Notes: generated from the sequence alone by a model not told the origin. Shown: positions 41,625 through 64,000, numbered from the stretch's first letter. The stretch: DNA of 64,000 nt from Gemmatimonadaceae bacterium (GCA_025934775.1 JAICWO010000020.1:1-64000); one strand, 5' to 3'. Program-made: numbers and translations.

Positions 41625-43025
41625 CTACTCCGCGCTCGCGTCGACGCTTGGGAGATACACGGTGAACGCGCTGCCGACGCCTGGCTCGCTCTCGACCTCG
41701 ACGTGACCGCCGGATTGCTTCACGATGCCGTACGCGGTCGAGAGACCCAGCCCAGTGCCGCGGCCGGGTTCCTTGGTGGTGAAGAACGGCTCGAAGATCT
41801 GCGCGAGCGTCTGCGCATTCATGCCCGTGCCTGTGTCGCGCACAATAATCGTCGCGTACTCGCCGGGCGCGACGTCCGGGTCGTCGCGCGACGCGCTCGC
41901 GCCCAACTCGGCGCTCCCCGTCTCGATCGTCAGGGTGCCGCCCTCGGGCATCGCGTCGGCCGCGTTGATCGCAAGATTCATCACGACCTGCTCGAGCTGA
42001 CCCGGATCGACGCGAACCAGCGGCACGTCGGGGGAGAGATGCGTCGCGACGCTGATGTTGCCGAGGACGAGGCGCCGCGTGAGCGTCTCGACGCCGCGCA
42101 GCACGTCGTTCGGATTGACGACTCGCGGCTCGAGCGCCTGCCGGCGGCTGAACGCGAGGAGCTGCCGCGTGAGCTTCGCCGCACGAGTCGTGGCGCCGCG
42201 GATCTCGGCGATCGCATCGCGTGCCTCGCCGGCCTTTGCTTCGACGAGAAGCAGCTCGGCGTAGCTGCTGATCACCGTGAGCAGATTATTGAAGTCGTGC
42301 GCGATGCCGCCGGCCAGCCGGCCCACGGCTTCCATCTTCTGCGCCTGGCGAAGCTGTGCCTCCAGCCGCCGCGACTCCGTGACGTCCGCCGCGACGGCGC
42401 CGATCGCGAACAGCTCGCCGTCGCGCGTCATGATGGGATAGAAGCTGGCGATGATGTGCCGCACGGTCCTTCCAGGACCGGGCGTCGGATGATCGAACTC
42501 GGCGCCGAGCACCGGCTCGCCGGTGGCGAGTACGCTGCGGAGAAGCGGCTCGACGTGGCCGGCGATGCGATCGTCGATTTCCCCCACCGTGGCGCCGATG
42601 TAGTCCTCGGGCGCGAGTCCGTGCAGCTCGGCAATGCGCTCGTTCACGCGCAGGAATCGAAGGTCGCGATCGAGGAACGCGAATCCGACCGGCGCGTTCT
42701 CGAGCGCGGAGTCGAGCAGGCCGGCGAGCTGCGCTTTCTGTCGCGCGTGCGTGAGCGCGTCGGCGGCTTGCCGCTCGAGCTGCTGACGCTGCTCGTCGAG
42801 CGCGAGCGCCTGCCGCACGATGTGCCGCATGAACGCCGAGAGCGCGACGAGGACGAGCAGCACCTCGGCGCAGACGAGCACGATCGGCACGAGGTGGGCG
42901 GTCAGTGCCACCGTGACCGCGATCGCCATCAGCGCCGCGGCACTCATCCAAGCGTAGCGTCGGAGCTCGGCGGCCACGCTGTGCGACGCGTCGCGCCGGC
43001 TCATCGATGAGTTCCGTTCGACCAT
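41625..43025 (-). CDS. PAS-domain sensor histidine kinase, membrane-bound
   Basis: The 466-residue protein has two N-terminal membrane helices (about 25-70) with almost no periplasmic loop. A PAS domain follows (about 100-220; ENAPVGFAFLDRDLRFLRVN). The HisKA region has the phospho-accepting H243 (GGIAHDFNNLL), and the ATPase domain shows N box NLAINAADAM, G1 DTGTGM and G2 GRGTGLGLS. The HDFNN form is typical of the group that pairs with a separate receiver. No response regulator is adjacent. It senses an intracellular or membrane signal. Confidence 0.92.
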   Translation of the reverse strand: MVERNSSMSRRDASHSVAAELRRYAWMSAAALMAIAVTVALTAHLVPIVLVCAEVLLVLVALSAFMRHIVRQALALDEQRQQLERQAADALTHARQKAQLAGLLDSALENAPVGFAFLDRDLRFLRVNERIAELHGLAPEDYIGATVGEIDDRIAGHVEPLLRSVLATGEPVLGAEFDHPTPGPGRTVRHIIASFYPIMTRDGELFAIGAVAADVTESRRLEAQLRQAQKMEAVGRLAGGIAHDFNNLLTVISSYAELLLVEAKAGEARDAIAEIRGATTRAAKLTRQLLAFSRRQALEPRVVNPNDVLRGVETLTRRLVLGNISVATHLSPDVPLVRVDPGQLEQVVMNLAINAADAMPEGGTLTIETGSAELGASASRDDPDVAPGEYATIIVRDTGTGMNAQTLAQIFEPFFTTKEPGRGTGLGLSTAYGIVKQSGGHVEVESEPGVGSAFTVYLPSVDASAE

Positions 43026-52029: not shown

Positions 52030-52033
52030 GGCC

Positions 52034-52057
52034 AAACATTAGAGCGCGTTAATGTTT
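52034..52057 (+). terminator. Low-GC hairpin after zwf
   Basis: aaacatta/taatgttt arms around an 8-base loop lie 4 bases after the zwf stop. There is no strong T-run. Confidence 0.45.
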
Positions 52058-52215
52058 CGCGCGGTCGATTCCGGTCTTGACGTGCGAACCGGGCGGTGTA
52101 GTCTGATCGTCACCTCGCCTACCCTGCGGAATCGCGGGTCCGCAGACGCTTCTCACGCCGCCGCGAACCATCCGTCGTGCCCTCCTCCACACAAAGCGAC
52201 GCGCTCGACCGCCAA

Positions 52216-52779
52216 TCAGGCGCCCAGGAGGCGCTTCAACCAGTCGTCGGCGATCACGTCGATGACCAGGTGCACGCGCGCGTCCGCGCCGTCGTTCCGG
52301 ACGGCGTGCGGATCGGAGAGGCGCAGGTACCAGCACTCCCCTTCACCCATGCGCACGGGCCGCTGATTCAGCATGAAGGTGACGCCCGGGTTGGTCGCGA
52401 CGGGAACGTGCAGGCGCGCAAAGCCCGACTCGACGTCCAGATCATGGTCCCGATGCTCGAGAATGACCGAGCCGGGGTCGAGCCGCATGAGACGGACGGA
52501 TTGCAACGGGCAGGAGAAGGCGCCGAGCACCTCGCGAAAGTAGGCGCACGCATCGAGCACCGGCGTGTCGCTAAACTCCGTGCACCCCGGGTCGGAGTAG
52601 ATCGCCTGCACCGGGTGCGTCGCGTAGGCCGGGCCACGCAGCGCGATGGCGGACCAGGTGCCCTCATAATTCCGTTTCACGAAGTGGTCGGTCCAGCCGA
52701 TCTCCTCGGCGACCGCAAGATCGGCGCGCAGGCGTTTGGGGTCGAAGTCGAGCGGGAGGCGAACGGCGTCGGGGATCAT
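52216..52779 (-). CDS. Aspartyl/asparaginyl beta-hydroxylase-like 2OG-Fe(II) oxygenase
   Basis: The 187-residue protein matches the AspH domain: KRNYEGTWSAIALRG, MRLDPGSVILEHRDHDLDVE, HVPVATNPGVTFMLNQRPVR, MGEGECWYLRLSDPHAVRND and VHLVIDVIADDWL. Metal ligands are probably H109 and H158, with R168 for 2-oxoglutarate and D111 near the iron. AspH proteins hydroxylate Asp or Asn side chains, usually on proteins or peptides. It is divergent from a sulfotransferase gene and near two tail-collar genes; the target could be local. No signal peptide. Confidence 0.85.
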   Translation of the reverse strand: MIPDAVRLPLDFDPKRLRADLAVAEEIGWTDHFVKRNYEGTWSAIALRGPAYATHPVQAIYSDPGCTEFSDTPVLDACAYFREVLGAFSCPLQSVRLMRLDPGSVILEHRDHDLDVESGFARLHVPVATNPGVTFMLNQRPVRMGEGECWYLRLSDPHAVRNDGADARVHLVIDVIADDWLKRLLGA

Positions 52780-52862
52780 GCGCCGGAGTTTCGTCGCTCG
52801 CGCGCCGCGGCGTCAAGGCGCGCGCGGCGCACGCATCTCGTGCGGCTCGGGCGGGCGGCGCG

Positions 52863-53885
52863 ATGACCGAGCGGCGTGTGCCGAGTCGCATCGTCTGGAC
52901 GGATCGCGGACCCGAGGTCGAGTGGCTCGCGACCGACGGCCGGCGGCACGAAGAGCCGTTCTTCGAGCAGACGCTGCGTGCGCTCTCGCGGCTCGAGGTC
53001 AATCGGCGACAGGCTCTGCGACGGACGCCGATCGAGGAGCTCGCGGCTGACGTCGAGGCGCGCACGCCGGCCGCTTTCATCTTTCACGTGTCGCGCTGCG
53101 GCTCCACGCTCCTGTGCCAGATGCTCGCCTCGCTCGAGGACAGCGTCGTGGTGTCGGAGGCGCCGGTATTGGATGACGTGCTCCGCGGCCGACGGGATGA
53201 TCCGAGCATCGATCCCGACGATCGCGTCGCGTGGCTCCGCGGCGCGGTGAGCGCACTGCTCGGCGGAGTGCCGGGAGCGCGGCGCGCGTTCGTCAAGCTC
53301 GACGCGTGGCACATCTTCGAGCTGGCGACCGTCCGCCGGGCATTCCCCGTGACGCCATTCGTGTTCGTATTCCGCGATCCGATCGAAGTGCTCGTGTCGC
53401 TGTCGCGGATGCCGAGCCTGGCGCTCGTGCGGGACACGGTGACCGCCGAACAGCTCGACCTGCCGACGAGCGTTCGCGACTCGCTCAGTCGCGAGGAGCT
53501 CGCCGCCGCGGTAGTGGGCGCGATCTACCGTGCGGCGCACCGTCATCGCGACGATCTGGTACCCATCGCGTACGATCAGCTTCCGGCGCTCGCGTGGCGT
53601 GCGATGCCGGGGTGCGCATTCACCGAACGCGAGATCGATCGCATGCGAGCGGCGGCTGAACGCGATGCGAAAGATCCGTCGCGCGCGTTCGAGCGCGACA
53701 CGGCGGAGAAGCGCCGGTCCATCTCGTCGACACTCAGCGCGGCACACGAGCGCTGGAGCAGTGATCCGTACGCGGCTTGGCTCGCCGCGGTCGCGCGCGA
53801 GCCGCGGGGACGCGTCGTCGGATCTGCCGCCGCCGGGGAGCTTCGCCCCGCGGCTGAAGTACCCTTCGCGCGGGTCCACGCGTGA
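52863..53885 (+). CDS. Sulfotransferase-fold protein 1
   Basis: The 340-residue protein has the PAPS 5'-phosphosulfate-binding loop in FHVSRCGSTLLCQMLASLED and a 3'-phosphate-binding stretch PFVFVFRDPIEVLVSLSRMP. It belongs to a divergent bacterial branch distinct from the two YPKSGNTW proteins at 59-61 kb. The N-terminal ~70 residues (SRIVWTDRGPEVEWLATDGR) may be an extra module. It transfers sulfate to a hydroxyl or amine; the acceptor is unknown. It precedes the two tail-collar genes on the same strand by 42 bases. Confidence 0.78.
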   Translation: MTERRVPSRIVWTDRGPEVEWLATDGRRHEEPFFEQTLRALSRLEVNRRQALRRTPIEELAADVEARTPAAFIFHVSRCGSTLLCQMLASLEDSVVVSEAPVLDDVLRGRRDDPSIDPDDRVAWLRGAVSALLGGVPGARRAFVKLDAWHIFELATVRRAFPVTPFVFVFRDPIEVLVSLSRMPSLALVRDTVTAEQLDLPTSVRDSLSREELAAAVVGAIYRAAHRHRDDLVPIAYDQLPALAWRAMPGCAFTEREIDRMRAAAERDAKDPSRAFERDTAEKRRSISSTLSAAHERWSSDPYAAWLAAVAREPRGRVVGSAAAGELRPAAEVPFARVHA

Positions 53886-53926
53886 TTCGCGCCGCATCCA
53901 CCATCCTTCTCCACATGAGGTGAACC

Positions 53927-54532
53927 GTGGAAGTATTCATCGGAACGATCCTGGGGTTCGGGTTCAACTTCGCTCCGCGGGGCTGGGCGCTCTGTCAGGG
54001 GCAGACGCTTTCGATCGCGCAGAACCAGGCGCTGTTCGCGTTGCTCGGCACCACCTACGGCGGCAATGGTGTGAGCACCTTCCAGCTTCCGGACCTTCGC
54101 GGCCGCCTGGCTGTCGGTCAGGGGCAGGCACCCGGGCTGCAGTCGTACAACCTCGGCCAAGTGGGCGGCGTCGAGCACGTGTCGCTCACCCAGCAGCAGA
54201 TGCCCTTGCACACGCACACGGCGAACGCGACCTCGAACTCCACGTCGACGTCCACCTCGACGTTGAACGCGGCGACCGCCCAGGGCTCGGTCGCGCTGCC
54301 AGGAGGCCACGCGCTCTCGGGCGCCAATGGGACGCTGATCTACAAGCCGGTCACGGCGGGCCAGACCGTCCCGATGGCACCGGAATCGGTGGGGACGACC
54401 ACCACCACGACGACGAATACCACGGTGACGGTCGCGCCGGCCGGTGCGGGTTTGCCGGTGTCCATACAGCAGCCGTACCTCTGCATCAACTACAGCATCG
54501 CATTGCTCGGAATCTTTCCCAGCCGCAACTAA
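53927..54532 (+). CDS. Phage-tail-collar (microcystin-dependent-protein-like) protein 1
   Basis: The 201-residue protein has an N-terminal collar fold: GTILGFGFNFAPRGWALCQG, GNGVSTFQLPDLRGRLAVGQ. Then come SLTQQQMPLHTHTA, a Ser/Thr/Asn-rich low-complexity arm and the C-terminal QPYLCINYSIALLGIFPSRN. Such proteins resemble tips of tail fibres and often occur as two or three tandem genes unrelated to prophages. GTG start, with gaggtg upstream. No signal peptide. Confidence 0.88.
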   Translation: MEVFIGTILGFGFNFAPRGWALCQGQTLSIAQNQALFALLGTTYGGNGVSTFQLPDLRGRLAVGQGQAPGLQSYNLGQVGGVEHVSLTQQQMPLHTHTANATSNSTSTSTSTLNAATAQGSVALPGGHALSGANGTLIYKPVTAGQTVPMAPESVGTTTTTTTNTTVTVAPAGAGLPVSIQQPYLCINYSIALLGIFPSRN

Positions 54533-54595
54533 GTCTTCGCTCCGCGCCCGCTGTTCGAGATGGGCGCTCTCTTCGCATCTCACATGAGGTGACAC

Positions 54596-55201
54596 GTGGA
54601 AGCATTCCTCGGAACCATCCTCGGGTTCGGTTTCAACTTCAACCCGTCGGGCTGGCAGCTCTGTCAGGGTCAGACGCTCCCGATTTCGCAGAACACCGCG
54701 CTGTTCGCGTTGCTCGGTACGAATTTCGGCGGCAACGGTCAAACGACGTTCCAGCTTCCGGACCTGCGGGGCCGCACGCCGATCGGTCAGGGCCAGGGAC
54801 TTGGGCTTCAGTCGTTCGCGATCGGCGAAGTTGGCGGCACGGAGAACGTGTCGCTGACGCAATCGCAGTTGCCCCAGCACACGCATGCCGCCACGGGGAC
54901 GTCGACGTCGACGTCGACGTCGACGTCGACGCTGAACGCGGCGACTGCCCAGGGCTCGGTCGCGCTGCCGGGAGGCCACGCGCTCTCGGGCGCCAATGGG
55001 ACCCTGATCTATAAGCCGGTCGCGGCGGGCCAGACCGTCGCGATGGCGCCGGAATCGGTGGGGACGACCACCACCACGACCACGAACACCACGGTAACCG
55101 TGGCGGCGACCGGCGGGAGCTCGCCCGTCCCCATCCTCCAGCCGTACCTCTGCATCAACTATTCGATCTGCCTCACCGGGATCTTCCCCTCCCGCAACTG
55201 A
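54596..55201 (+). CDS. Phage-tail-collar (microcystin-dependent-protein-like) protein 2
   Basis: The 201-residue paralogue of the preceding gene has the same length and the same GTG start preceded by gaggtg. N-terminus: GTILGFGFNFNPSGWQLCQG. The middle Ser/Thr arm is encoded by a run of tcgacg units (54900-54931). From about STLNAATAQGSVALPGG to TTNTTVTVA the two proteins are almost identical, also at the DNA level, whereas the N-terminal collar and the end differ. This suggests recent gene conversion. Function unknown; likely an extracellular or assembly tip. Confidence 0.88.
   Translation: MEAFLGTILGFGFNFNPSGWQLCQGQTLPISQNTALFALLGTNFGGNGQTTFQLPDLRGRTPIGQGQGLGLQSFAIGEVGGTENVSLTQSQLPQHTHAATGTSTSTSTSTSTLNAATAQGSVALPGGHALSGANGTLIYKPVAAGQTVAMAPESVGTTTTTTTNTTVTVAATGGSSPVPILQPYLCINYSICLTGIFPSRN
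54900..54931 (+). repeat. Hexanucleotide tcgacg tract inside tail-collar gene 2
   Basis: The run (gtcgac)n encodes a Ser-Thr alternation (STSTSTSTST). Copy-number change by slippage would keep frame, so arm length could vary. Gene 1 has a shorter, degenerate version at the same place. Confidence 0.85.
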
Positions 55202-55209
55202 GCCGTACT

Positions 55210-55244
55210 CCGGTGCGCGGCGCCGGCTCGGCGCCGCGCACCGG
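55210..55244. terminator. GC-rich hairpin after tail-collar gene 2
   Basis: Perfect 15-base-pair stem ccggtgcgcggcgcc/ggcgccgcgcaccgg with loop ggctc, 8 bases after the stop. An AT-rich stretch (55246-55275) with the next GTG follows and may be the promoter of the next gene. Confidence 0.75.
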
Positions 55245-55275
55245 AAGCTAATATCAATTCGTTAATTACATAATT

Positions 55276-56436
55276 GTGACGCCCCTTCGCATTGGCGTGT
55301 TGCTGCCCGTCTCGCGGATGTTCCCGCGAGTGGATCAGGACTTTCTGGGCGGGCTCAGGGCGGGGCTCGGCGAGGCCGCCGCGGCGTGCGAGCTCACGCT
55401 GGAGCCCGGCGGACCCGCCGCCGATCCGCGGATCGTCACCGACAAGCTCCAGCGGCTGCTGCTTCAGCATCGGCCGCACGTCGTGGTCGGGATCGTGGGC
55501 TCCGCGATGCTCCGTCACGTTCACGCGCTGTTCAGCGACGCCCGCGTTCCATTCGTCGTGAACAATCTCGGCGCCGAACCGCTGCTCGACGGCGGTGCGC
55601 CGAACGAGTACGTGTTTCACAATTCTTTCAATCTCTGGCAGTCGATGTACGCCCTCGGATCCTGGGCGGCGCGGACGCTCGGCCGGCGTGCCGCGCTCGC
55701 GAGCGGCTTCCACGACTCTGGCTACGGCATCGTCCCGGCCTTCTGGAGCGGGTTCTGCGACGCCGGCGGGGGTGAGATCGTGGCGACCGAAGTCACGAAT
55801 CGCGATAGCTCCGAGGAAGATCCGTCCGTCGCGCTCCAACGCTTGGCCGACGCGAAGCCGGACCTCATCGTCGGGTTGTACGCCGGCCGGTCCGCGCTGT
55901 CGTTCATGCAGAGCTACGACGCGCTCGGGCTCGCGCCCACGCTGCCGCTCATCTCGAGCGCCTTCTTGATGCACCGCCAATGGCTCGGTGCAATGGGCGA
56001 TACTGCGATCGGCGTGCGCACGGCGTTCTCGTGGGATCGCGATGCCCGGCGAGACGAGGATCGCGCCTTCCACGCCGCCTGCGCGGCCGCCGAGTTGCCG
56101 GACCCTGACGTGTTCGCGCTGCTCGGCTACGAGACGGGAAAGGCGCTCGCCGACGCCGCCGCGCGATGTGGCGACAAGCCGTCCGGCGACGCGGTCCGCG
56201 AGGCGCTGCCGCTCGCCGTCATCACCTCGCCTCGGGGGGAGTTCTCATTCGACGCGAGCACGGGCGAAGTGCCGACGAAGGACTATTTGCTCGAGGTGCA
56301 GCGCGGCGAAGATGGCGCCGCGCGTCTGGCGACGGTCGGTACGCTCGATCTGCCGGAGCGATACGCGGCGGAGTATGCGGCCTATCGCGCCCAAGAGGTG
56401 CGGACAGGCTGGACCAACGCGTACATGATCACCTGA
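55276..56436 (+). CDS. Periplasmic-binding-fold protein without signal peptide (branched-chain type)
   Basis: The 386-residue protein has the type I binding fold of Leu/Ile/Val-binding proteins: LRIGVLLPVSRMFPRVDQDF, PHVVVGIVGSAMLRHVHALF, ALASGFHDSGYGIVPAFWSG, DLIVGLYAGRSALSFMQSYD and the C-terminal FDASTGEVPTKDYLLEVQRG. It starts MTPLRIG with no signal peptide, so it is predicted to be cytoplasmic, and no permease or ATPase gene is nearby. It may be an intracellular sensor. It follows the collar genes and converges with the AAA-VWA operon with an 8-base overlap. Confidence 0.8.
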   Translation: MTPLRIGVLLPVSRMFPRVDQDFLGGLRAGLGEAAAACELTLEPGGPAADPRIVTDKLQRLLLQHRPHVVVGIVGSAMLRHVHALFSDARVPFVVNNLGAEPLLDGGAPNEYVFHNSFNLWQSMYALGSWAARTLGRRAALASGFHDSGYGIVPAFWSGFCDAGGGEIVATEVTNRDSSEEDPSVALQRLADAKPDLIVGLYAGRSALSFMQSYDALGLAPTLPLISSAFLMHRQWLGAMGDTAIGVRTAFSWDRDARRDEDRAFHAACAAAELPDPDVFALLGYETGKALADAAARCGDKPSGDAVREALPLAVITSPRGEFSFDASTGEVPTKDYLLEVQRGEDGAARLATVGTLDLPERYAAEYAAYRAQEVRTGWTNAYMIT

Positions 56437-58075
56437 CCGCGCGTCGCGCGGGCTTCCGCGGCTGCGCCGGTGCCGCGAAGAACGCGGTGAGCGACCGGCT
56501 CAGAGCGGCGGCGAGATCGTCGGCGCTCGCGATGGACGCAGCGCGCGAGTAGAACCGCCGCACGTCGTGTCCGACGCCGATCGCCGCGATCTCGACGGGC
56601 GAGCGCATGTCGATGTCGTCGGCGACGGCGCGCAGATGGCGCGCGAGGTACGCACGTCCATTCGCCTGCTCGGTTGCTTCGTCGTGCGGCTCACCGTCGG
56701 AGACGACGAGCAGCAGCTTGCGGGGCTCCGCCCGCCGGCGCAGACGCGCGTGCGCCCACTGCACCGCCTCGCCATCGATGTTTTCCTTGAGGAGCTCGTC
56801 GCGCAGGACGAGGCCGAGGCCATGGCGCGCTCGCCGCCACGGAACGTCGGCACTCTTGAGCACGATGTGCTCGAGCGGCGCCAGTCGCCCGGGATTGGCC
56901 GGTGCGCCGGCTGCGAGCCACTCCGCCCGCGCGTGGCCGCCATCCCAGTCGCGCGTCGTGAAGCCAAGCACCTCGCACACGATACCGCAGCGCTCGAGCG
57001 CCTGAATCATGAGCTCGACGGTCAGCGCCGCGATGAGGATCGGACGGCCCCGCATCGATCCGGAACAGTCGACGAGCAGCGTGACGGCCGCGCGAGGGAG
57101 ACGGCTCTCGGCCTCCGCCTTGAAGGGCCGCGCATCGCCGGGCGCCGCGATCAAACCGGCCAGGCGCCGGCCGTCGAGCACGCCCTCGTCCAGATCGAAG
57201 CGCCACGAGCGCGCCTGCCGCGCCATGAGCATTCTTCGAAGCCGGTTGGCGAGGCGCGTGGCCGCGAGCCGAGTCTCGCCCAGCTCGGCGTCGAGTCGCG
57301 CGCGCAGTGTGGCCAGTTCGCTGGGCCGCGCGAGCGAGGCCGCATCGACCACGCGATCGTGCGCCGTCGTGTATGCGTGATAGCTCGTAGAATGGTTTTC
57401 GGGAGCGCGCGTCGCTCGCGCGGCGCCGCCGGCCGCGGCGTGCACCCTACGATTGAACCGGTCGCCGCGTGCCTGAACCGAGGTCGTTCCCGCGCCATGT
57501 TGCGCGACACGCGCCTCTCCGGCGCTCGACACTGATGCGGCGGCACGCGCCATCGCCGCCGCGGCCCACGGATGCGCCGCGGCGGCGTGCGCCCACTGCG
57601 CCGCCGTCGCGGCGAATGCCGGCTGAACCACAACGAGTGGAGCGAGCGCGGAGAGCCCCGGACGCAGCGCCGCCGGCATGGCGGCGGCGACCCGCGTCAC
57701 GCCCGACGCGATCGTGGCCGGCGGGCCGCGGTTGGCGAGTGCCTCGAAGGCCAGCCATTGCATGAGCGTTTGCTCATCGGCCACGTCGGCGAGGAGATTC
57801 GTCGCCACGCCGGGGAGCCATGCGGCGCCGAGCGCGTCGAGACGGGCGGCCTCCAGCGCATCGTAGATCTGTGCGGCCACCGCCGTGCGCGGACGCGCGG
57901 CAGCGTGGCACGGGCCGTCATGCCAGCGCGCCCGAACGGCGGCTCTGTCGCCGGCGGCGCGAAGAGCGACGCGCGTCGCGGACGGCGGCGCCGGGACCTT
58001 CACCACATGGCCGGCGAGTGCGCGTGCGCAGGCCGCGACTGCCGCCTCGAGCGATCGCGGCGAACGCTCAGACAC
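56429..58075 (-). CDS. CobT-like von Willebrand factor A protein (orphan chelatase-type)
   Basis: The 548-residue protein has a C-terminal VWA domain with MIDAS motif [11 protein letters not shown] and [39 protein letters not shown]-type ending ([19 protein letters not shown]). The Ala/Arg-rich N-terminal half resembles the CobT linker region. In aerobic cobalamin synthesis, CobS and CobT drive cobalt insertion by CobN, but no cobN or other cob gene is here, so the pair may serve another target, like MoxR-VWA chaperones. GTG 58075 overlaps the CobS-like stop by 8 bases. Confidence 0.78.
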
Positions 58076-59048
58076 GATCGCGCGCGGCGGGCACCTCGGC
58101 CGTGCACTCCTCGCCAAAGCAGCGCTGATAGTATTCCGCCACGATTGCCTGCTCGGCCTCGTCGCACCGGTTGAGGAACGTGAGCCGGAACGCGCGCGGT
58201 ACGTCCCCGAGTAGCAACGCGTTCTGCGCCCACGTGATCACGGTCCGCGGCGACATCACCGTCGAGAGCTCGCCCTGCGTGAAGCCGCGCCGCGTGAGCG
58301 CGGCGACGCGCACCATGGCGTCCACACGTGCGCGGCCCGCGTCATCGTCGTACTCGGGACAGCGCGCGAGCACGATGGCCGCTTCACGATCGGGCTCGAG
58401 ATAGTTGAGCGTAGCCACGATGCTCCAGCGATCCAACTGCCCCTGATTCAACGGCTGCGTGCCGTGGTAGAGTCCCGTCGCGTCGCCGAGTCCCACCGTG
58501 TTCGCCGTCGCGAACAACCGGAACGCGGGATGTGGGGTGAGCACGCGCCGCTGGTCGAGCAGCGTGAGACGTCCGTCGACCTCGAGCACGCGCTGGATCA
58601 CGAAGAGCACATCGGGACGGCCGGCGTCGTACTCGTCGAACACGAGCGCACAGGGATGCTCGAGCGCCCAGGTGAGCATGCCGGGCTGGAACTCCGTGAC
58701 CTGCCGTCCGTCGTGCACGACGATGGCGTCCTTTCCGATCAAGTCCATCCGACTCACGTGGCCGTCCAGGTTCACCCGAACGCAGGGCCAGTTGAGACGC
58801 GCGGCGACTTGCTCGACGTGGGTCGACTTTCCAGTTCCGTGATAGCCCTGGACGAGCACGCGGCGGTTGTGCGCAAAGCCCAGGAGGAGCGCGAGCGTGG
58901 TCTCGGGATCGAAGACGTAGCTCGGATCGATCGGCGGGACGTGTTCGTCTGGCGCCGAGAACGCCGGTACCTGGAGATCGATCGAAAGTCCGAACACCTC
59001 GCGCGCGCTGACGATTCGATCGGGGAGACTGCCGTTGGATTCAGCCAT
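58068..59048 (-). CDS. CobS-like AAA+ ATPase (MoxR-related)
   Basis: The 326-residue AAA+ protein has Walker [10 protein letters not shown] (68-76), Walker B LVFDEYDA (135-142), sensor-1 region [20 protein letters not shown] and [20 protein letters not shown]. The [20 protein letters not shown] stretch is typical of cobaltochelatase CobS. It starts 6 bases after the stop of a sulfotransferase gene and is coupled to the CobT-like gene. This order (sulfotransferase, AAA, VWA) is unusual and points away from cobalamin synthesis. Confidence 0.85.
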
Positions 59049-59054
59049 GCGTGC

Positions 59055-60017
59055 TCATCGGACGCTGGACGTGTGCACCGATTCGCCGGCGAGGGCCGAC
59101 TGCGTGCAAGCGGCGTCCGACGGCGGCAGCTCGTAGCCGAGGCGGCGCATCATCGGCGCGTGCGCTGCCTCGATGCGGGCAATCTGGTCATCGGTCAACT
59201 CATCGCGCCAGCCGTCGGCGACGCCGCGGCGAAAGAAGTTGCCATTCGCGTGCGGCCTGGGCGCCTCACCGAATCCCTTTTCGCGCTCCTGGCGTTGCAG
59301 CTCCTTGAAATCGGCGAATCGGACGGCGCGCTCGATCTGCTCGTCGGTCGCGTCGTGGCCGGCGAAATCGAGCACACGTCGCAACTCGTCGGCGGTGTTG
59401 GATTGCAGGTCCTCATAGCGAACGACCGCGACCGGAAGGTCCCGCTGGTCGAGCCAACTCGCCGTGTGTCCAGTCCACCCGGGAAGCTGCTGTCGGAGTT
59501 GGTTGTAGAAGCGGCCCGGCGCTCCGCAGAACGACGCGTTGACGTCCTGCATGAACGCGATCGCCTGATCGATGCTGAGGCCCAAGTGACTCGCGAGCGA
59601 TGGCGCGACACCGCGCGGGTCGCGAACGACGAGGATCGCGCCATCCGCGGCCTCGCTTCCGCCGAGGAGCGCGTCGCCGTCGGCCGTGAACGTGTACGCA
59701 TCGTGCACCTTGATGAACTGCGCTGACGCGGAGATGTCTCCGTCCTCCTCGTCGCCGGCAGAGTTGCGCATCGCGCGGTAGAGCAGCGGACGGATGCGAT
59801 CGGATTCGTCGTACGTCAGCAGCGCGGAATCGATGAGCGACAGTCGCTCGAATGGGGCGCGTGCGCTGGCCATGCCGCCATCGAAACGCACGTCGTTGAT
59901 GTCGATGGGCGTGTCGCCGCCAGCGGACAGATTTGCGATCAACATGCGCATCCACGTATTGCCGGACTTGGGATAGGACGCGAGCCAAATGACGCGCACG
60001 GATATGCCTGGGTTCAT
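59055..60017 (-). CDS. Sulfotransferase 2 (YPKSGNTW type)
   Basis: The 320-residue protein has the PAPS-binding YPKSGNTW at 15-22 and the 3'-phosphate motif GAILVVRDPRGVAPSLASH. LPVAVVRYEDLQSNTADELR, FKELQRQEREKGF and the C-terminal NFFRRGVADGWRDELTDDQI follow, as in cytosolic sulfotransferases. It is homologous along its length to the divergent gene at 60212. First gene of the operon with the CobS/CobT-like pair. Acceptor unknown. Confidence 0.9.
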   Translation of the reverse strand: MNPGISVRVIWLASYPKSGNTWMRMLIANLSAGGDTPIDINDVRFDGGMASARAPFERLSLIDSALLTYDESDRIRPLLYRAMRNSAGDEEDGDISASAQFIKVHDAYTFTADGDALLGGSEAADGAILVVRDPRGVAPSLASHLGLSIDQAIAFMQDVNASFCGAPGRFYNQLRQQLPGWTGHTASWLDQRDLPVAVVRYEDLQSNTADELRRVLDFAGHDATDEQIERAVRFADFKELQRQEREKGFGEAPRPHANGNFFRRGVADGWRDELTDDQIARIEAAHAPMMRRLGYELPPSDAACTQSALAGESVHTSSVR

Positions 60018-60211
60018 CCTCCGGGCCCCTCGAGGGCGTGGTGTGATACGATACTAGCACCGGTTTCGTCGGACGGCGACCGAAATCGATCCGTCGCCGT
60101 TGACGCATCGGCGGCCAGACGCGTACACTTGCAGTCCATTGCGTTCGCGGAGCGTGGCGGTCCGTCATCCCATCGCCGCGAACAGCGACGAGCAGCCGAG
60201 TGGAGTATTCC

Positions 60212-61144
60212 GTGACGCGCACCGTCTGGCTCGCCTCATACCCCAAATCCGGGAACACGTGGGTTCGGATCTTACTGGCGAACCTGGACGCGGGGGAGGC
60301 GGCCCCCGTCGACATCAACGACTTGCCGACAGATGGCGCCATCGCGAGCGCGCGCGAGCCATTCGATGATCTGCTGTTGATCGAGTCGTCCGTGCTGACG
60401 CACGATGAATCGGAAGCGCTGCGCCCGCGCGTGTACGATGCCATGGCCAGTGGATTCCGGTACGGCGACGACGAACCGTCCAACACTGACGGAATCCGCT
60501 TCGCCAAGGTACACGACGCATACACGGCGACGCGAAACGGCGAACCCGTGCTCGGTGGTAGCCGGGCCGCAGCCGGGGCGATCGTCATCGTTCGCGACCC
60601 GCGCGACATCGTGCCGTCGCTCGCGCATCACCTGGGCATTACGATGAACGCGGCGATCGATCGCCTGAGCGACAGTCATGCGACCTCCAACGGCGCGACC
60701 TCCATGCTGCCGCAGCAGCTCCGGCAGCGGCTCCTGGGTTGGAGCGAGCACGTCGAGAGTTGGATCGCACAGACCGACATTCCGGTGCACGTACTCCGCT
60801 ACGAAGATCTGCAAAGAGATACGCCGGCGGCATTCGCCGGCGCGCTGGCGTTCGCCGGTCGCCGGGCAGCGCCGGCCGACATCGCGCGTGCGGTGGAGTG
60901 CTCTCGCTTCGAGACCCTTCGTCGACTCGAGGAGGCCAACGGATTCCACGAGGCGCCGCGATCGCGCTCGGGCGCGAGGTTCTTTCGTCGCGGTACGACG
61001 GGTGCCTGGCGAGACGAGCTCACGCCGGCACAGATCGCACGCATTGAGGATGCGCATGCCGCGATGATGATGCGCGTGGGCTATGATCTGCTCGATCATC
61101 AGCGGCACGGCGCGGCTTACCCTACCGAGAGCGCACGGTCATGA
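60212..61144 (+). CDS. Sulfotransferase 3 (YPKSGNTW type)
   Basis: The 310-residue paralogue of sulfotransferase 2 has YPKSGNTWVRILLANLDAGE, AIVIVRDPRDIVPSLAHHLG, VHVLRYEDLQRDTPAAFAGA and RFFRRGTTGAWRDELTPAQI. GTG 60212 is chosen because ggag lies 6 bases upstream (60202-60205); an in-frame GTG at 60200 would add four residues. The gene is divergent from its paralogue and overlaps the next gene by ATGA, coupling it to a putative dioxygenase. Confidence 0.9.
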   Translation: MTRTVWLASYPKSGNTWVRILLANLDAGEAAPVDINDLPTDGAIASAREPFDDLLLIESSVLTHDESEALRPRVYDAMASGFRYGDDEPSNTDGIRFAKVHDAYTATRNGEPVLGGSRAAAGAIVIVRDPRDIVPSLAHHLGITMNAAIDRLSDSHATSNGATSMLPQQLRQRLLGWSEHVESWIAQTDIPVHVLRYEDLQRDTPAAFAGALAFAGRRAAPADIARAVECSRFETLRRLEEANGFHEAPRSRSGARFFRRGTTGAWRDELTPAQIARIEDAHAAMMMRVGYDLLDHQRHGAAYPTESARS

Positions 61145-61695
61145 CGCACGAATATCCCTTCCTCGTCCGAGGCGCCGCCGACGCGCCGTTCCTCGCGCAC
61201 GTCGACGGACTGATCGATGAGAACATCGCGAACTTTCAACCCAATGGCTCGCACAAGAGGTTCTGGAGCTTCACCGACGGCGGTGATTCGATCATTCAAC
61301 GCAAGAAGCTCGAGCTCATTGAGCATTTCGGAATTGTGAACTGGATTGGCGACACCCACACGCACGACTTCATCGGTATGATCGACGAGGGTGGGGTGAT
61401 CCGGCCGCACACGGATCCCAACCTGGATGGCCGGCTGCACGTGCGGATCAACGTGATCGTACGCATGCCGGACAGCGGCTGCGTTCCACTGCTCGACGAC
61501 ATTCCGATAGACGTCGGACTCGGCGACGCCTGGTTGTGCTTCTCGGGGCGATGCTGTCATGCCACGACACCGGTGTCCGGAACGCACAGCCGGAGCGCCC
61601 TCAGCTACGGGCTGCAAGTGGAGCAGAGTGCGATTTTCCCGCTTCTCGCCACATATCTCGCGTGGAGGTCACACGCGTCGATGGCGCTCAGATGA
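61141..61695 (+). CDS. Putative AspH-like/2OG-Fe(II) dioxygenase
   Basis: The 184-residue protein has an H-x-D...H...R set: H90-T-D92 (VIRPHTDPNLDGR), H140 (CCHATTPVSG) and R151 (SRSALSYGLQV), as in 2-oxoglutarate-dependent oxygenases. LHVRINVIVRMPDSG matches the small AspH-like/jelly-roll class. It may hydroxylate a peptide side chain. It is co-translated with sulfotransferase 3; hydroxylation followed by sulfation is an attractive order of events but unproven. Its end overlaps the convergent B2 gene by 8 bases. Confidence 0.72.
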   Translation: MTHEYPFLVRGAADAPFLAHVDGLIDENIANFQPNGSHKRFWSFTDGGDSIIQRKKLELIEHFGIVNWIGDTHTHDFIGMIDEGGVIRPHTDPNLDGRLHVRINVIVRMPDSGCVPLLDDIPIDVGLGDAWLCFSGRCCHATTPVSGTHSRSALSYGLQVEQSAIFPLLATYLAWRSHASMALR

Positions 61696-62179
61696 AGCGC
61701 GCGATTTCCACCATATCGGCCGGAATCGGATAGCCGGTCACTTCGACGCCGGCTGCTTCGAGCCAGGCATGGGCATCCAGCGCATCGGAGCTGGTGGGGC
61801 CGGCGGCGCCGAAGTGCACGACGCCGCGTACACCGCGCCGCCGGAGCATGGCGTGCGCGGCCAGCGCTTGGGTGAGACACACCGCGCGGAACGGGAGGTG
61901 GCGTGCCGCGGCCCTTACCGCCCAAGCCACATCGCGCGCCATTGCCGGCATTGATGGGTCAGCCGCCGCGGGATCGCCGCCCGGTCGGTCCTTCAGCCCG
62001 TCCGCTGGCGAAACGAATCCGCCGAGCCGGCGGGCGGTGCGTGAGAATGGGATGAGTCGGGCTTCTGCGCGCGCGACGAGCAGCGAGAGCGCGGCTTCGA
62101 CGAGCAGCGCTCGACGCCGCGCGGGCAGGTCGAAGAAGCGATGGACGAGCCGGCGAGTCCGTCCCCGCGTCGAGATCAT
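61688..62179 (-). CDS. Lasso-peptide B2-like leader protease (McjB C-terminal family)
   Basis: The 163-residue protein is a transglutaminase-like cysteine protease of the McjB C-terminal (PF13471) type. Catalytic Cys is C101 (PFRAVCLTQALAAHAMLRRR) and His is H137 (SDALDAHAWLEAAGVEVTGY). In lasso pathways B2 cuts off the precursor leader. It is the third of three adjacent minus-strand genes: kinase, PqqD, B2. Length matches standalone B2 proteins. Confidence 0.88.
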   Translation of the reverse strand: MISTRGRTRRLVHRFFDLPARRRALLVEAALSLLVARAEARLIPFSRTARRLGGFVSPADGLKDRPGGDPAAADPSMPAMARDVAWAVRAAARHLPFRAVCLTQALAAHAMLRRRGVRGVVHFGAAGPTSSDALDAHAWLEAAGVEVTGYPIPADMVEIARFI

Positions 62180-62209
62180 CGCTAGCTGTGCAGGCGTGTG
62201 CCGATCCGC

Positions 62210-62479
62210 TCAGGCGGCGTCGACATCGATGGCACCGCGCGCCTTCAGCTCGTCGAGAAAGGCGGCGACTTCCGTGCGACAGACGTCGGGAGCGACGTCG
62301 AATTCCTCGAGCAATCGAACGCAGATCTCATCAACCGGCGTTGGCGACGAGATCAGTTCCCAGATCCGGGCCCCGACCGCATTGAGCCCTATGTAGTTGC
62401 CCTTCTCGGCGCTCATCATCACGATCTCATCGCCTACTTGCGCCGACAGCCAATCACCTTGCCGACGTACCAGCATCAT
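62210..62479 (-). CDS. PqqD-family RiPP recognition element (lasso B1-like)
   Basis: The 89-residue PqqD-fold protein contains DEIVMMSAEKGNYIGLNAVG, ARIWELISSPTPVDEICVRL and TEVAAFLDELKARGAIDV. In RiPP pathways this winged-helix-like domain binds the leader peptide and delivers it to the processing enzymes. It overlaps the kinase gene by ATGA (62476-62479) and lies 30 bases before B2. Confidence 0.9.
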   Translation of the reverse strand: MMLVRRQGDWLSAQVGDEIVMMSAEKGNYIGLNAVGARIWELISSPTPVDEICVRLLEEFDVAPDVCRTEVAAFLDELKARGAIDVDAA

Positions 62480-63408
62480 GTTGCTCCTTGTAGCAGCCGG
62501 ATTTCGCTCCAGTGCCTCCGAAGGTTCGCGATCGATTGCGGTAACTCGGCGAACGCCAGCGGCCGCGTGAGGTGGTATACGTTCCCGGAACGCGCGACCG
62601 CCGTCGCCACCCGAAAATACTGTTCACGCTGTCGCATGCGCTCCACGAGCACGCCGCGATAGGCATGGCGGCGGACCGCGTTCGCGCCGTCGAGCACGCT
62701 CATTCGCTGAATGCCCGCCGCGTGCGGCGGACGCGCTTCGCGGAGCGCGTAGACGGCGGCGATGGGGAGCGGCGCCTCCACGGCGCCGCCGTGCTCCACA
62801 TAATACTTCTCTAATTCACGCCGGACCCGCACTCTCGAGCGCGGCGCGAGTTGGAGCTGGTCGATCGTTTGCGCCCAGAGCTTGAGTTGGCGCCCATCGG
62901 AGTGGACGATCGGCTCACCGTCGCCTCGCAGCGTGATTCGGCAGAGATCGTCCGCCACGCACGGTTGTCCGCCCTGGCCGAGCGCCGCCGCCATCGTCGA
63001 CTTGCCAGCGCCCGACTTGCCGCAGAAGAGCACCGCTTTGCCGTTCACGGCAACCGCACTGGCGTGCAGGACGACCTGACCGCGTTGGTGGAGCAGAATG
63101 CCGAGGACCGTCCCGAGGAGGAAGATCGCTACGTCGTCGCGCGGCATGTGCGGCTCGGGCTCGCAGACGATCGACCGGCCGCCGAGGAGGAGAAACCGAG
63201 CGACGCCTGGAATCCGGAGCAGGAATTTTTCGCCGTCGATGGCCCACGTCGGACCGGTCAGCGCCGCGTCATCGAGAGCTAGCGGGACATCACCGAAGCG
63301 GATGGCGACGTCGGTCGGCCCGCGCGCGGACTCGACGTTGAGCAACCCTGGTAGAGGCACCTCGCTGTCGACCGACAATCCGGACACTTGGTACACGCGA
63401 GTCATCAT
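62476..63408 (-). CDS. HPr-kinase-like protein, probable lasso-peptide kinase
   Basis: The 310-residue protein has an HPrK-type P-loop GKSGAGKST at 130-138, the family LHASAVAVNG (H115) before it and CVADDLCRI (D153-D154) after it. It lacks the canonical N-terminal HPrK domain and PTS context. Stand-alone kinases of this kind phosphorylate the C-terminal residue of lasso peptides in some Gram-positive clusters. It is the first gene of the PqqD-B2 operon. Phosphorylation of the local precursor (which ends in Ser) is a reasonable inference. Confidence 0.85.
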   Translation of the reverse strand: MMTRVYQVSGLSVDSEVPLPGLLNVESARGPTDVAIRFGDVPLALDDAALTGPTWAIDGEKFLLRIPGVARFLLLGGRSIVCEPEPHMPRDDVAIFLLGTVLGILLHQRGQVVLHASAVAVNGKAVLFCGKSGAGKSTMAAALGQGGQPCVADDLCRITLRGDGEPIVHSDGRQLKLWAQTIDQLQLAPRSRVRVRRELEKYYVEHGGAVEAPLPIAAVYALREARPPHAAGIQRMSVLDGANAVRRHAYRGVLVERMRQREQYFRVATAVARSGNVYHLTRPLAFAELPQSIANLRRHWSEIRLLQGAT

Positions 63409-63552
63409 GATCGGCGTAATCTACGATCCGTCGCGTGCTGCGCTACGCCGCGTACGAAGTCCGTGAGTTGCATTGTGTGAAGCGCAACGGAGATCGATTA
63501 GGAACCGAACTGGACGGACGTGATGCGCGTCACATCCGACCGGTCTTCTCGC

Positions 63553-63581
63553 TTGACCCGTTCATGTTGCGTCCGTATCAT
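63553..63581 (+). promoter_or_regulatory. Sigma-70-type promoter of the candidate precursor gene
   Basis: TTGACC (63553-63558) and TATCAT (63576-63581) are separated by exactly 17 bases. The expected start is near 63588, about 30 bases before the GTG at 63621. Confidence 0.6.
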
Positions 63582-63620
63582 CTTCACTGACTTTCTAGTC
63601 CCCTAACTTCCGGAGGTCCC

Positions 63621-63812
63621 GTGAACGAGGTGCATCGCGACACGGTTGAGAATCGGCAGACAGTCACCGAGGAAGAGCGCGGACATGGCGCACGGCGACC
63701 CTGGGTCACGCCACACGTCGTCCTCTCCGAAGTTCGGCAGTTCACGGCGAGACACCATTCGTACCGCGAGGTCACGTACCACACTGCAGGGGCCTCATAC
63801 GGTCCGTCGTGA
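63621..63812 (+). CDS. Candidate lasso-peptide precursor
   Basis: The 63-residue peptide has a charged leader and then RRPWVTPHVVLSE (26-37). W28, P31 and V33 resemble the Y-x-x-P-x-L leader motif bound by PqqD-like B1 proteins. Thr42 would be the usual -2 Thr before a core starting at Arg44 with Glu50 at position 7, giving a 7-residue ring; the tail is rich in Tyr and ends YGPS. GGAGG lies 4 bases before GTG. No similar short gene was found on the minus strand. The core boundary is uncertain. Confidence 0.65.
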   Translation: MNEVHRDTVENRQTVTEEERGHGARRPWVTPHVVLSEVRQFTARHHSYREVTYHTAGASYGPS

Positions 63813-63840
63813 GTTCCATACGCTGCCGCCGCCTCCGGCA

Positions 63841-63999
63841 CTATGAGGTGCGATTCCAGCCGTGAAACCACTCGATGTAGCGTGCGGCAAGGAAGCCGGA
63901 AATCGCCATCTGCGTGTCCTGCTCCCATCCTGAGTTGTGATCATCTGCGCCGCGCGCCGCGAGTAAACCGCGAATCTTGGCAAAGTCAAAGTAGGACGC
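63841..63999 (-). CDS. C-terminal 52 residues of an unidentified protein; possible lasso cyclase (5' end outside window)
   Basis: Reading the minus strand from base 63999, one frame is open for 52 codons to TAG at 63841-63843. It contains ASYFDFAKIRGLLAARGADD and ISGFLAARYIEWFHGWNRTS with GC-rich third positions, so it looks coding. Since a lasso pathway needs an asparagine-synthetase-like cyclase and none occurs elsewhere here, this is the natural candidate. The fragment is too short to show the ATP-binding motif. It converges on the precursor gene, 28 bases away. Confidence 0.4.
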   Translation of the reverse strand, partial: ASYFDFAKIRGLLAARGADDHNSGWEQDTQMAISGFLAARYIEWFHGWNRTS

Positions 64000-64000
64000 C

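Follow-up and report, generated by a model that had tools for sequence, protein, structure and literature searches.

A predicted lasso peptide cluster with an HPrK-like kinase and sulfotransferases on a genomic island of a probable Gemmatimonadota bacterium

Lasso genes and the predicted precursor

The window analysed here is a 64,000-nucleotide stretch from Gemmatimonadaceae bacterium (GCA_025934775.1 JAICWO010000020.1:1-64000), which corresponds to positions 1-64000 of a contig of 81,621 bases; coordinates above 64000 extend the window numbering rightward. Toward its right end lies a candidate lasso peptide locus, in which genes for a PqqD-like recognition element (B1), a leader peptidase (B2), an HPrK-like kinase (K) and an asparagine-synthetase-like cyclase (C) accompany a small precursor gene (A) (Table 1). 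A preliminary description of this DNA had placed K, B1 and B2 together on the minus strand with an ATGA overlap between the first two, and this arrangement was confirmed by the family matches of B1 and B2 and by the exact overlap of K and B1 at 62476-62479. The best NCBIfam match of B1 was a lasso PqqD model, at a score below that model's own cut-off. In B2, residues C101 and H137 were invariant across 26 rows of the alignment. The cyclase gene, which it had been proposed to seek by extending the contig rightward, was found convergent with the precursor gene, its end being separated from the precursor stop codon by 28 bp; a cyclase gene was thus present within a few kb. The SGGxDS motif is conserved in C, and its best NCBIfam match was the lasso isopeptide cyclase model NF033535, with 334.6 bits against the model's own cut-off of 525. 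Because this score is under the cut-off, the assignment of C rests on ranking and context. On the sequence evidence, the locus holds the full lasso complement of A, B1, B2 and C.

The precursor gene carries GGAGG ahead of its GTG start. Its product had been proposed earlier as a 63-residue candidate with its own promoter, and both proposals held up: a σ70-like sequence precedes the gene (one promoter-type site was found versus 0.4 expected in 3 kb), and relatives of the peptide exist. Searches by tblastn and listing of open reading frames (ORFs) detected these relatives as small ORFs in many alphaproteobacterial loci, on the strand opposite the cyclase gene and just past it, with leaders following R-x-W-x-T-P-x-V-I-x-S. 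The precursor is conserved beside B1, B2 and C genes in approximately 20 other genomes. A leader-only hidden Markov model (HMM) was built from 20 leader segments, leaving out the window sequence and all C-termini, and was used to search 7,331 small ORFs. It recovered the window precursor at an E value of 9e-6 as the sole confident match in the window. All 28 distinct matches at E<1e-3 end in Ser, in agreement with the earlier proposal that the C-terminal Ser of this precursor is the likely phosphosite. Furthermore, Asp and Glu were clustered 18-22 residues past the leader Pro (P) across the family, even though the ORFs had been picked without regard to the position of acidic residues. Such a residue occurs at P+18 to P+21 in 20 of 21 non-redundant precursors, as compared with 5.3 in shuffled sequences and a maximum of 13 in 20,000 trials. 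The clustered position is where a lasso acceptor is expected, and the putative acceptor Glu of the window precursor, at P+19, matches the family. The leader-only HMM and the statistics on acidic residues ruled out a chance ORF.

The window precursor has the leader Trp and Pro, a Thr at −2 and a Glu at core position 7, and fits the pattern of a [Y/W]xxP leader, Thr or a similar residue at −2, and Asp or Glu at core positions 7-9. Its closest relatives by cyclase (L035, L052, L036 and L038) have Thr or Ser at −2, Lys at 1, an acidic residue at 7 or 8, and a G-P-S end. Since the cleavage context in the window reads TA followed by RHHSYREVTYHTAGASYGPS, like that of these relatives, a seven-residue ring between R1 and E7 with a 13-residue tail ending in G-P-S appears the likeliest product, and we hold it with reasonable though incomplete confidence. 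Cleavage one residue earlier, which would yield the core ARHHSYREVTYHTAGASYGPS and an eight-residue A1-E8 ring, seems less likely; the calculated macrolactam masses are 2257.041 Da for R1-E7 and 2328.078 Da for A1-E8. YGS-type precursors of Sphingomonadales do fit an A1-D8/9 ring in the same register, whereas the cyclase-nearest relatives share the arrangement predicted for R1-E7.

Sulfotransferases and kinase

Two SULT-type sulfotransferase genes (ST1 and ST2) lie near the lasso genes. The motifs SYPKSGNTW, K103xH105, R132/S140 and R263xG265, which hold the catalytic KxH residues and the 5′-PSB and 3′-PB elements binding 3′-phosphoadenosine 5′-phosphosulfate (PAPS), were kept in 37 rows. A linkage test was started from the sulfotransferase instead of the lasso genes, using 200 Sphingomonadaceae-type genomes, all from the family to which the Sphingomonas genome carrying locus L050 belongs. 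The search gave 20 matches in 18 genomes; 19 loci were retrieved with 20-kb neighbourhoods, the twentieth being L050 itself. B1 and cyclase-like genes were found in all 19 of these loci and an HPrK-like gene in 18. The possibility that the sulfotransferase is an accidental neighbour of lasso genes was ruled out by this unbiased test. Among the named loci, 18 of 21 have a sulfotransferase, the exceptions being three short contigs. On this comparative evidence, the tight partnership of kinase and sulfotransferase is the striking feature of the locus, and it goes unmentioned in the preliminary description.

The island that bears the locus also encodes an adenosine 5′-phosphosulfate (APS) kinase, as part of a CysN/C fusion, and no other copy was found in the genome. 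The five congeneric genomes gave a single 21-bit match and no genuine APS kinase, although two of them are only 79-90% complete. An APS kinase was also present in 10 of 10 alphaproteobacterial genomes with the cassette, which says little because it is probably the norm for that group. Taken together, it seems somewhat more probable than otherwise that the precursor is sulfated by one or more of the sulfotransferases with PAPS. On a less likely reading, the lasso peptide is made and phosphorylated while the sulfotransferases and PAPS genes serve a different acceptor, for instance a small molecule, a surface glycan or the collar proteins. Apart from the C-terminal Ser, which is the expected kinase target, the cores share no conserved Tyr or other residue that could accept sulfate, and sulfation at a conserved Tyr is accordingly unsupported. 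Moreover, phage-tail-collar genes lie near 10 of the 19 unbiased sulfotransferase loci (AspH near 7 of the 19), and in the congener G144 three collar genes and a GNAT gene occur without lasso genes. Nevertheless, the sulfotransferase is also found where collar genes are absent and is missing only from the three short contigs. In several operons it adjoins K or shares a few bases with the adjacent genes, for example in the order K-ST-C of L035. These observations weigh against a separate substrate.

HPrK and PEPCK (phosphoenolpyruvate carboxykinase) are related kinases, and K was compared with both. Its phmmer match in the PDB was weak (E 0.04). An AlphaFold2 model from 17 sequences had a pLDDT of 91.8 and a pTM of 0.89, and aligned to PEPCK over 266 residues with a Z score of 18.5 and to HPrK/P chains at E of approximately 1e-5. 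The model supports a fold of the PEPCK/HPr-kinase superfamily. In addition, at least 95% of 41 rows kept H115, K136, D153 and D154, which match the His-Lys-Asp-Asp set whose importance in lasso kinases has been shown (PMC9266682). Lasso kinases described to date modify the precursor while it is still linear; for paeninodin, ThcoA and SyanA the modified residue is the C-terminal Ser (PMC9266682). By analogy, the C-terminal Ser of the precursor is the likely phosphosite.

The genomic island, its accessory genes and its origin

Although the preliminary description identified the kinase, B1, B2 and the precursor correctly, the locus is far larger than it stated. Comparison of neighbouring genes in congeneric genomes revealed an insertion of 23.8 kb at approximately 52.0-75.8 kb, which separates zwf from the RNase R gene and contains the lasso genes, the two SULT-type sulfotransferase genes, a third sulfotransferase-like gene (ST3), the APS kinase and CysD genes, hydroxylase-like genes and phage-tail-collar genes.

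Table 1. Features of the island and the lasso locus
Feature	Position	Strand	Evidence or remark
Left portion of 23.8-kb insertion	52030-64000		zwf ends 52029; RNase R 75839 beyond window
AspH, Asp/Asn beta-hydroxylase-like	52216-52779	-	PF05118 50.4 bits
ST3, third sulfotransferase-like protein	52863-53885	+	PF13469 31.9 bits
Phage-tail-collar-domain protein 1	53927-54532	+	PF07484 97.4 bits
Phage-tail-collar-domain protein 2	54596-55201	+	PF07484 94.3 bits
ST1, sulfotransferase, SULT type	59055-60017	-	PF00685 77.5 bits; PDB SULT1A1 E 3e-14
ST2, sulfotransferase, 53% identical to ST1	60200-61144	+	PF00685 72.8 bits
Putative 2-oxoglutarate (2OG)/Fe dioxygenase-like protein, 184 aa	61141-61695	+	HTD...H...R (HxD...H...R) pattern in sequence only; ATGA-coupled to ST2
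B2, leader peptidase, 163 aa	61688-62179	-	NF033537 lasso_biosyn_B2 76.3 bits (cut-off 33)
B1, PqqD-like recognition element for ribosomally synthesized and post-translationally modified peptides (RiPPs), 89 aa	62210-62479	-	PF05402 78 bits (cut-off 23.4)
K, HPrK/PEPCK-superfamily kinase, 310 aa	62476-63408	-	weak Pfam HPr kinase match, fold match, conserved residues
σ70-like promoter of precursor	63553-63581	+	TTGACC-17-TATCAT; consensus match only
A, lasso precursor, 63 aa	63621-63812	+	GTG start; leader ...ARRPWVTPHVVLSEVRQFTA; predicted core RHHSYREVTYHTAGASYGPS
C, cyclase, asparagine-synthetase-like, 644 aa	63841-65775	-	window holds 3′ end only (63841-64000); Asn_synthase PF00733 89.7 bits, above cut-off
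Nucleotidyltransferase-like domain fused to methyltransferase	65772-67328	-	upstream of C, overlaps C by ATGA
Major facilitator superfamily (MFS) gene	74500-75825		one MFS gene in the island

In each of the five congeneric genomes, only 23-998 bp separate zwf from the RNase R gene and the neighbouring genes on both sides are the same, so that a clean empty site exists. No tRNA was found at the island borders, nor any direct repeat of at least 11 bp. The G+C content at third codon positions (GC3) was 0.73-0.79 for B1, B2, the kinase and the cyclase and 0.74-0.82 for the sulfotransferase and nucleotidyltransferase genes, compared with 0.80-0.92 for most flanking genes. In the cyclase tree, the window protein was placed inside an alphaproteobacterial clade (SH-aLRT 99 with 9 rows and 100 with 24 rows), away from the other cyclases of the phylum. 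This nesting and the empty site in five congeners ruled out vertical inheritance within the phylum. Horizontal acquisition of the island, perhaps via an unsampled intermediate, is well supported by the empty site, GC3, the cyclase nesting and an AspH/ST3 gene pair shared with Alphaproteobacteria. The M28 peptidase gene of the island showed 69% identity to a plasmid gene of Gemmatirosa kalamazoonensis, its sole match in 72,556 plasmids; Gemmatirosa was likewise the top-listed match of the non-island gene at 41625-43025. Both matches point to Gemmatimonadota as the probable phylum.

The AspH and ST3 genes form a divergent pair that recurs in the alphaproteobacterial (Sphingomonadales) cassettes, and AspH is 53-61% identical to its counterparts in nine alphaproteobacterial lasso cassettes. 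Relatives of AspH (approximately 40%) were also observed near HPrK-like genes in two other genomes of the phylum (L083 and L084), the former having a PqqD-like gene as well, which suggests that AspH-type hydroxylases are more widely associated with HPrK/PqqD systems. For the putative dioxygenase-like protein coupled to ST2, neither Pfam nor the PDB gave a match and 395 genomes of the phylum yielded no relative; its single-sequence model was uninformative (pLDDT 31).

Two or three tandem collar genes with a GNAT gene stand beside lasso cassettes in the window (53927-55201) and in L041, L043-L046, L048-L051, L053 and L085-L087. A short conserved gene (L086:17762-18085) often accompanies this module, and in a congener the module stands alone without lasso genes, by a region of long repetitive ORFs (L072). 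Between the collar and sulfotransferase genes of the island, at 55276-59048, are a periplasmic-binding-protein gene and a CobS/CobT-like ATPase/VWA pair, none of which was found in the alphaproteobacterial cassettes. Upstream of C, the nucleotidyltransferase domain of the fusion protein is apparently catalytically degenerate; beyond the fusion gene lie genes for a GNAT protein, a full NTP_transf_5 protein, the CysN/C fusion and CysD.

The preliminary description regarded a kinase-tailored lasso locus as notable in this lineage. The locus itself stands, but it is not unique: B1-B2-C-kinase loci occur in at least three further genomes from this phylum, two of them with recognisable precursors. 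Those at L074:5224-5388(+) and L076:12746-12976(-) belong to kinase-bearing lasso loci and have Thr at −2, Asp8 and a C-terminal Ser, one of them ending in GIYGPS. No sulfotransferase relative was detected at L074 or L076.

A proposed kinase-plus-sulfotransferase lasso family

With considerable confidence, we interpret the locus as a complete lasso cluster of an alphaproteobacterial kinase-plus-sulfotransferase family that an island has brought into a bacterium, probably one of the Gemmatimonadota. The peptide is probably RHHSYREVTYHTAGASYGPS with an R1-E7 ring, phosphorylated at the C-terminal Ser and probably also sulfated. We infer all the chemical steps, their order, the phosphosite and the ring register. 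B1 would bind the RRPWVTPxV part of the leader and present the precursor to the kinase and the sulfotransferase(s). Phosphorylation by the kinase would take place at the C-terminal Ser while the precursor is still linear, and the sulfotransferase(s) would sulfate a side-chain hydroxyl with PAPS supplied by the island CysNC and CysD. B2 would then cleave after T(−2)A(−1) and remove the leader, and C would close the ring through a bond between the R1 amino group and the E7 side chain.

Several observations weigh against this interpretation. The core has no evident residue for sulfation, and Arg at core position 1 is unusual among lasso peptides. The Pfam HPr kinase score of K was 28 bits versus a cut-off of 33.3, and its predicted fold fits PEPCK better than HPrK. 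No dedicated ATP-binding cassette (ABC) exporter was seen, as judged from ORFs, in the island or in two complete alphaproteobacterial cassettes. Finally, BsfK phosphorylates Ser3 of the BsfA core, within the ring, and not the C-terminal residue (PMC10368454). A kinase target elsewhere in the core, such as the ring residue Ser4, is nonetheless improbable here, because BsfA ends in Asp whereas every confident precursor of the present family ends in Ser, like those of the paeninodin, ThcoK and SyanK systems (PMC9266682). It is equally doubtful that the product is an unthreaded macrolactam or a member of another RiPP class, for which 'lasso' would be a misnomer: the NF033535 score is under its cut-off and topology is not readable from sequence, but B2, B1 and C each score best on lasso-specific NCBIfam models and the acceptor position is compatible with rings of 7-9 residues.

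Kinase-tailored lasso clusters are known (PMC8498205, PMC9266682, PMC10368454), and such tailoring has been published for Bacillota, Sphingobium and Bradymonas (PMC9266682, PMC10368454). The paeninodin (pade), SyanK and ThcoK clusters resemble the locus in A, B1, B2, C, an HPrK-like kinase with His-Lys-Asp-Asp and a Ser-ended precursor (PMC9266682). The present locus differs in its sulfotransferase and PAPS genes, hydroxylase-like genes, nucleotidyltransferase-methyltransferase fusion and collar genes, a comparison that leaves aside the syan cluster's own sulfotransferase content. The Bradymonas bsf cluster likewise has split B1/B2, cyclase, kinase and nucleotidyltransferase genes (PMC10368454); however, its precursor has Ile at −2, ends in Asp and is phosphorylated at Ser3, and the cluster includes an ABC transporter, whereas at the window locus residue −2 is Thr, the precursor ends in Ser and no ABC transporter was seen. 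A putative sulfotransferase gene has been noted at the start of some lasso clusters of Bacillota, its function not being reported there (PMC8498205); in contrast, the sulfotransferase is near-universal in the alphaproteobacterial family and PAPS genes are on this island. A 2OG hydroxylase gene, canE, occurs in the cluster of canucin, a hydroxylated lasso peptide (PMC9266682), whereas AspH belongs to the Asp_Arg_Hydrox family.

In the open-access literature, no report was found of a sulfated lasso peptide or of a link between lasso and collar proteins, and priority is uncertain. A text search for sulfation terms in a 2026 review listing many lasso modifications (PMC13352647) gave none for lasso peptides. 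From the gene content compared here, the conserved pairing of a kinase with a sulfotransferase in lasso clusters appears to be a new combination. We give about even chances to the view that the locus and its alphaproteobacterial relatives form a lasso family bearing both phosphate and sulfate, with sulfation as constant as phosphorylation. The island is a good test case because it has its own PAPS-synthesis genes, a known empty site, and a precursor with one clear acceptor and a predictable mass. If this view is true, the family would provide the first lasso peptides to carry a sulfate, and the island would bring its own PAPS supply into a genus that otherwise lacks one. Dozens of genomes retain the kinase and sulfotransferase as a pair, with no obvious exporter and frequently near phage-tail-collar genes, and such a pairing points to a charged peptide that may have a role other than ordinary secreted antibiosis.

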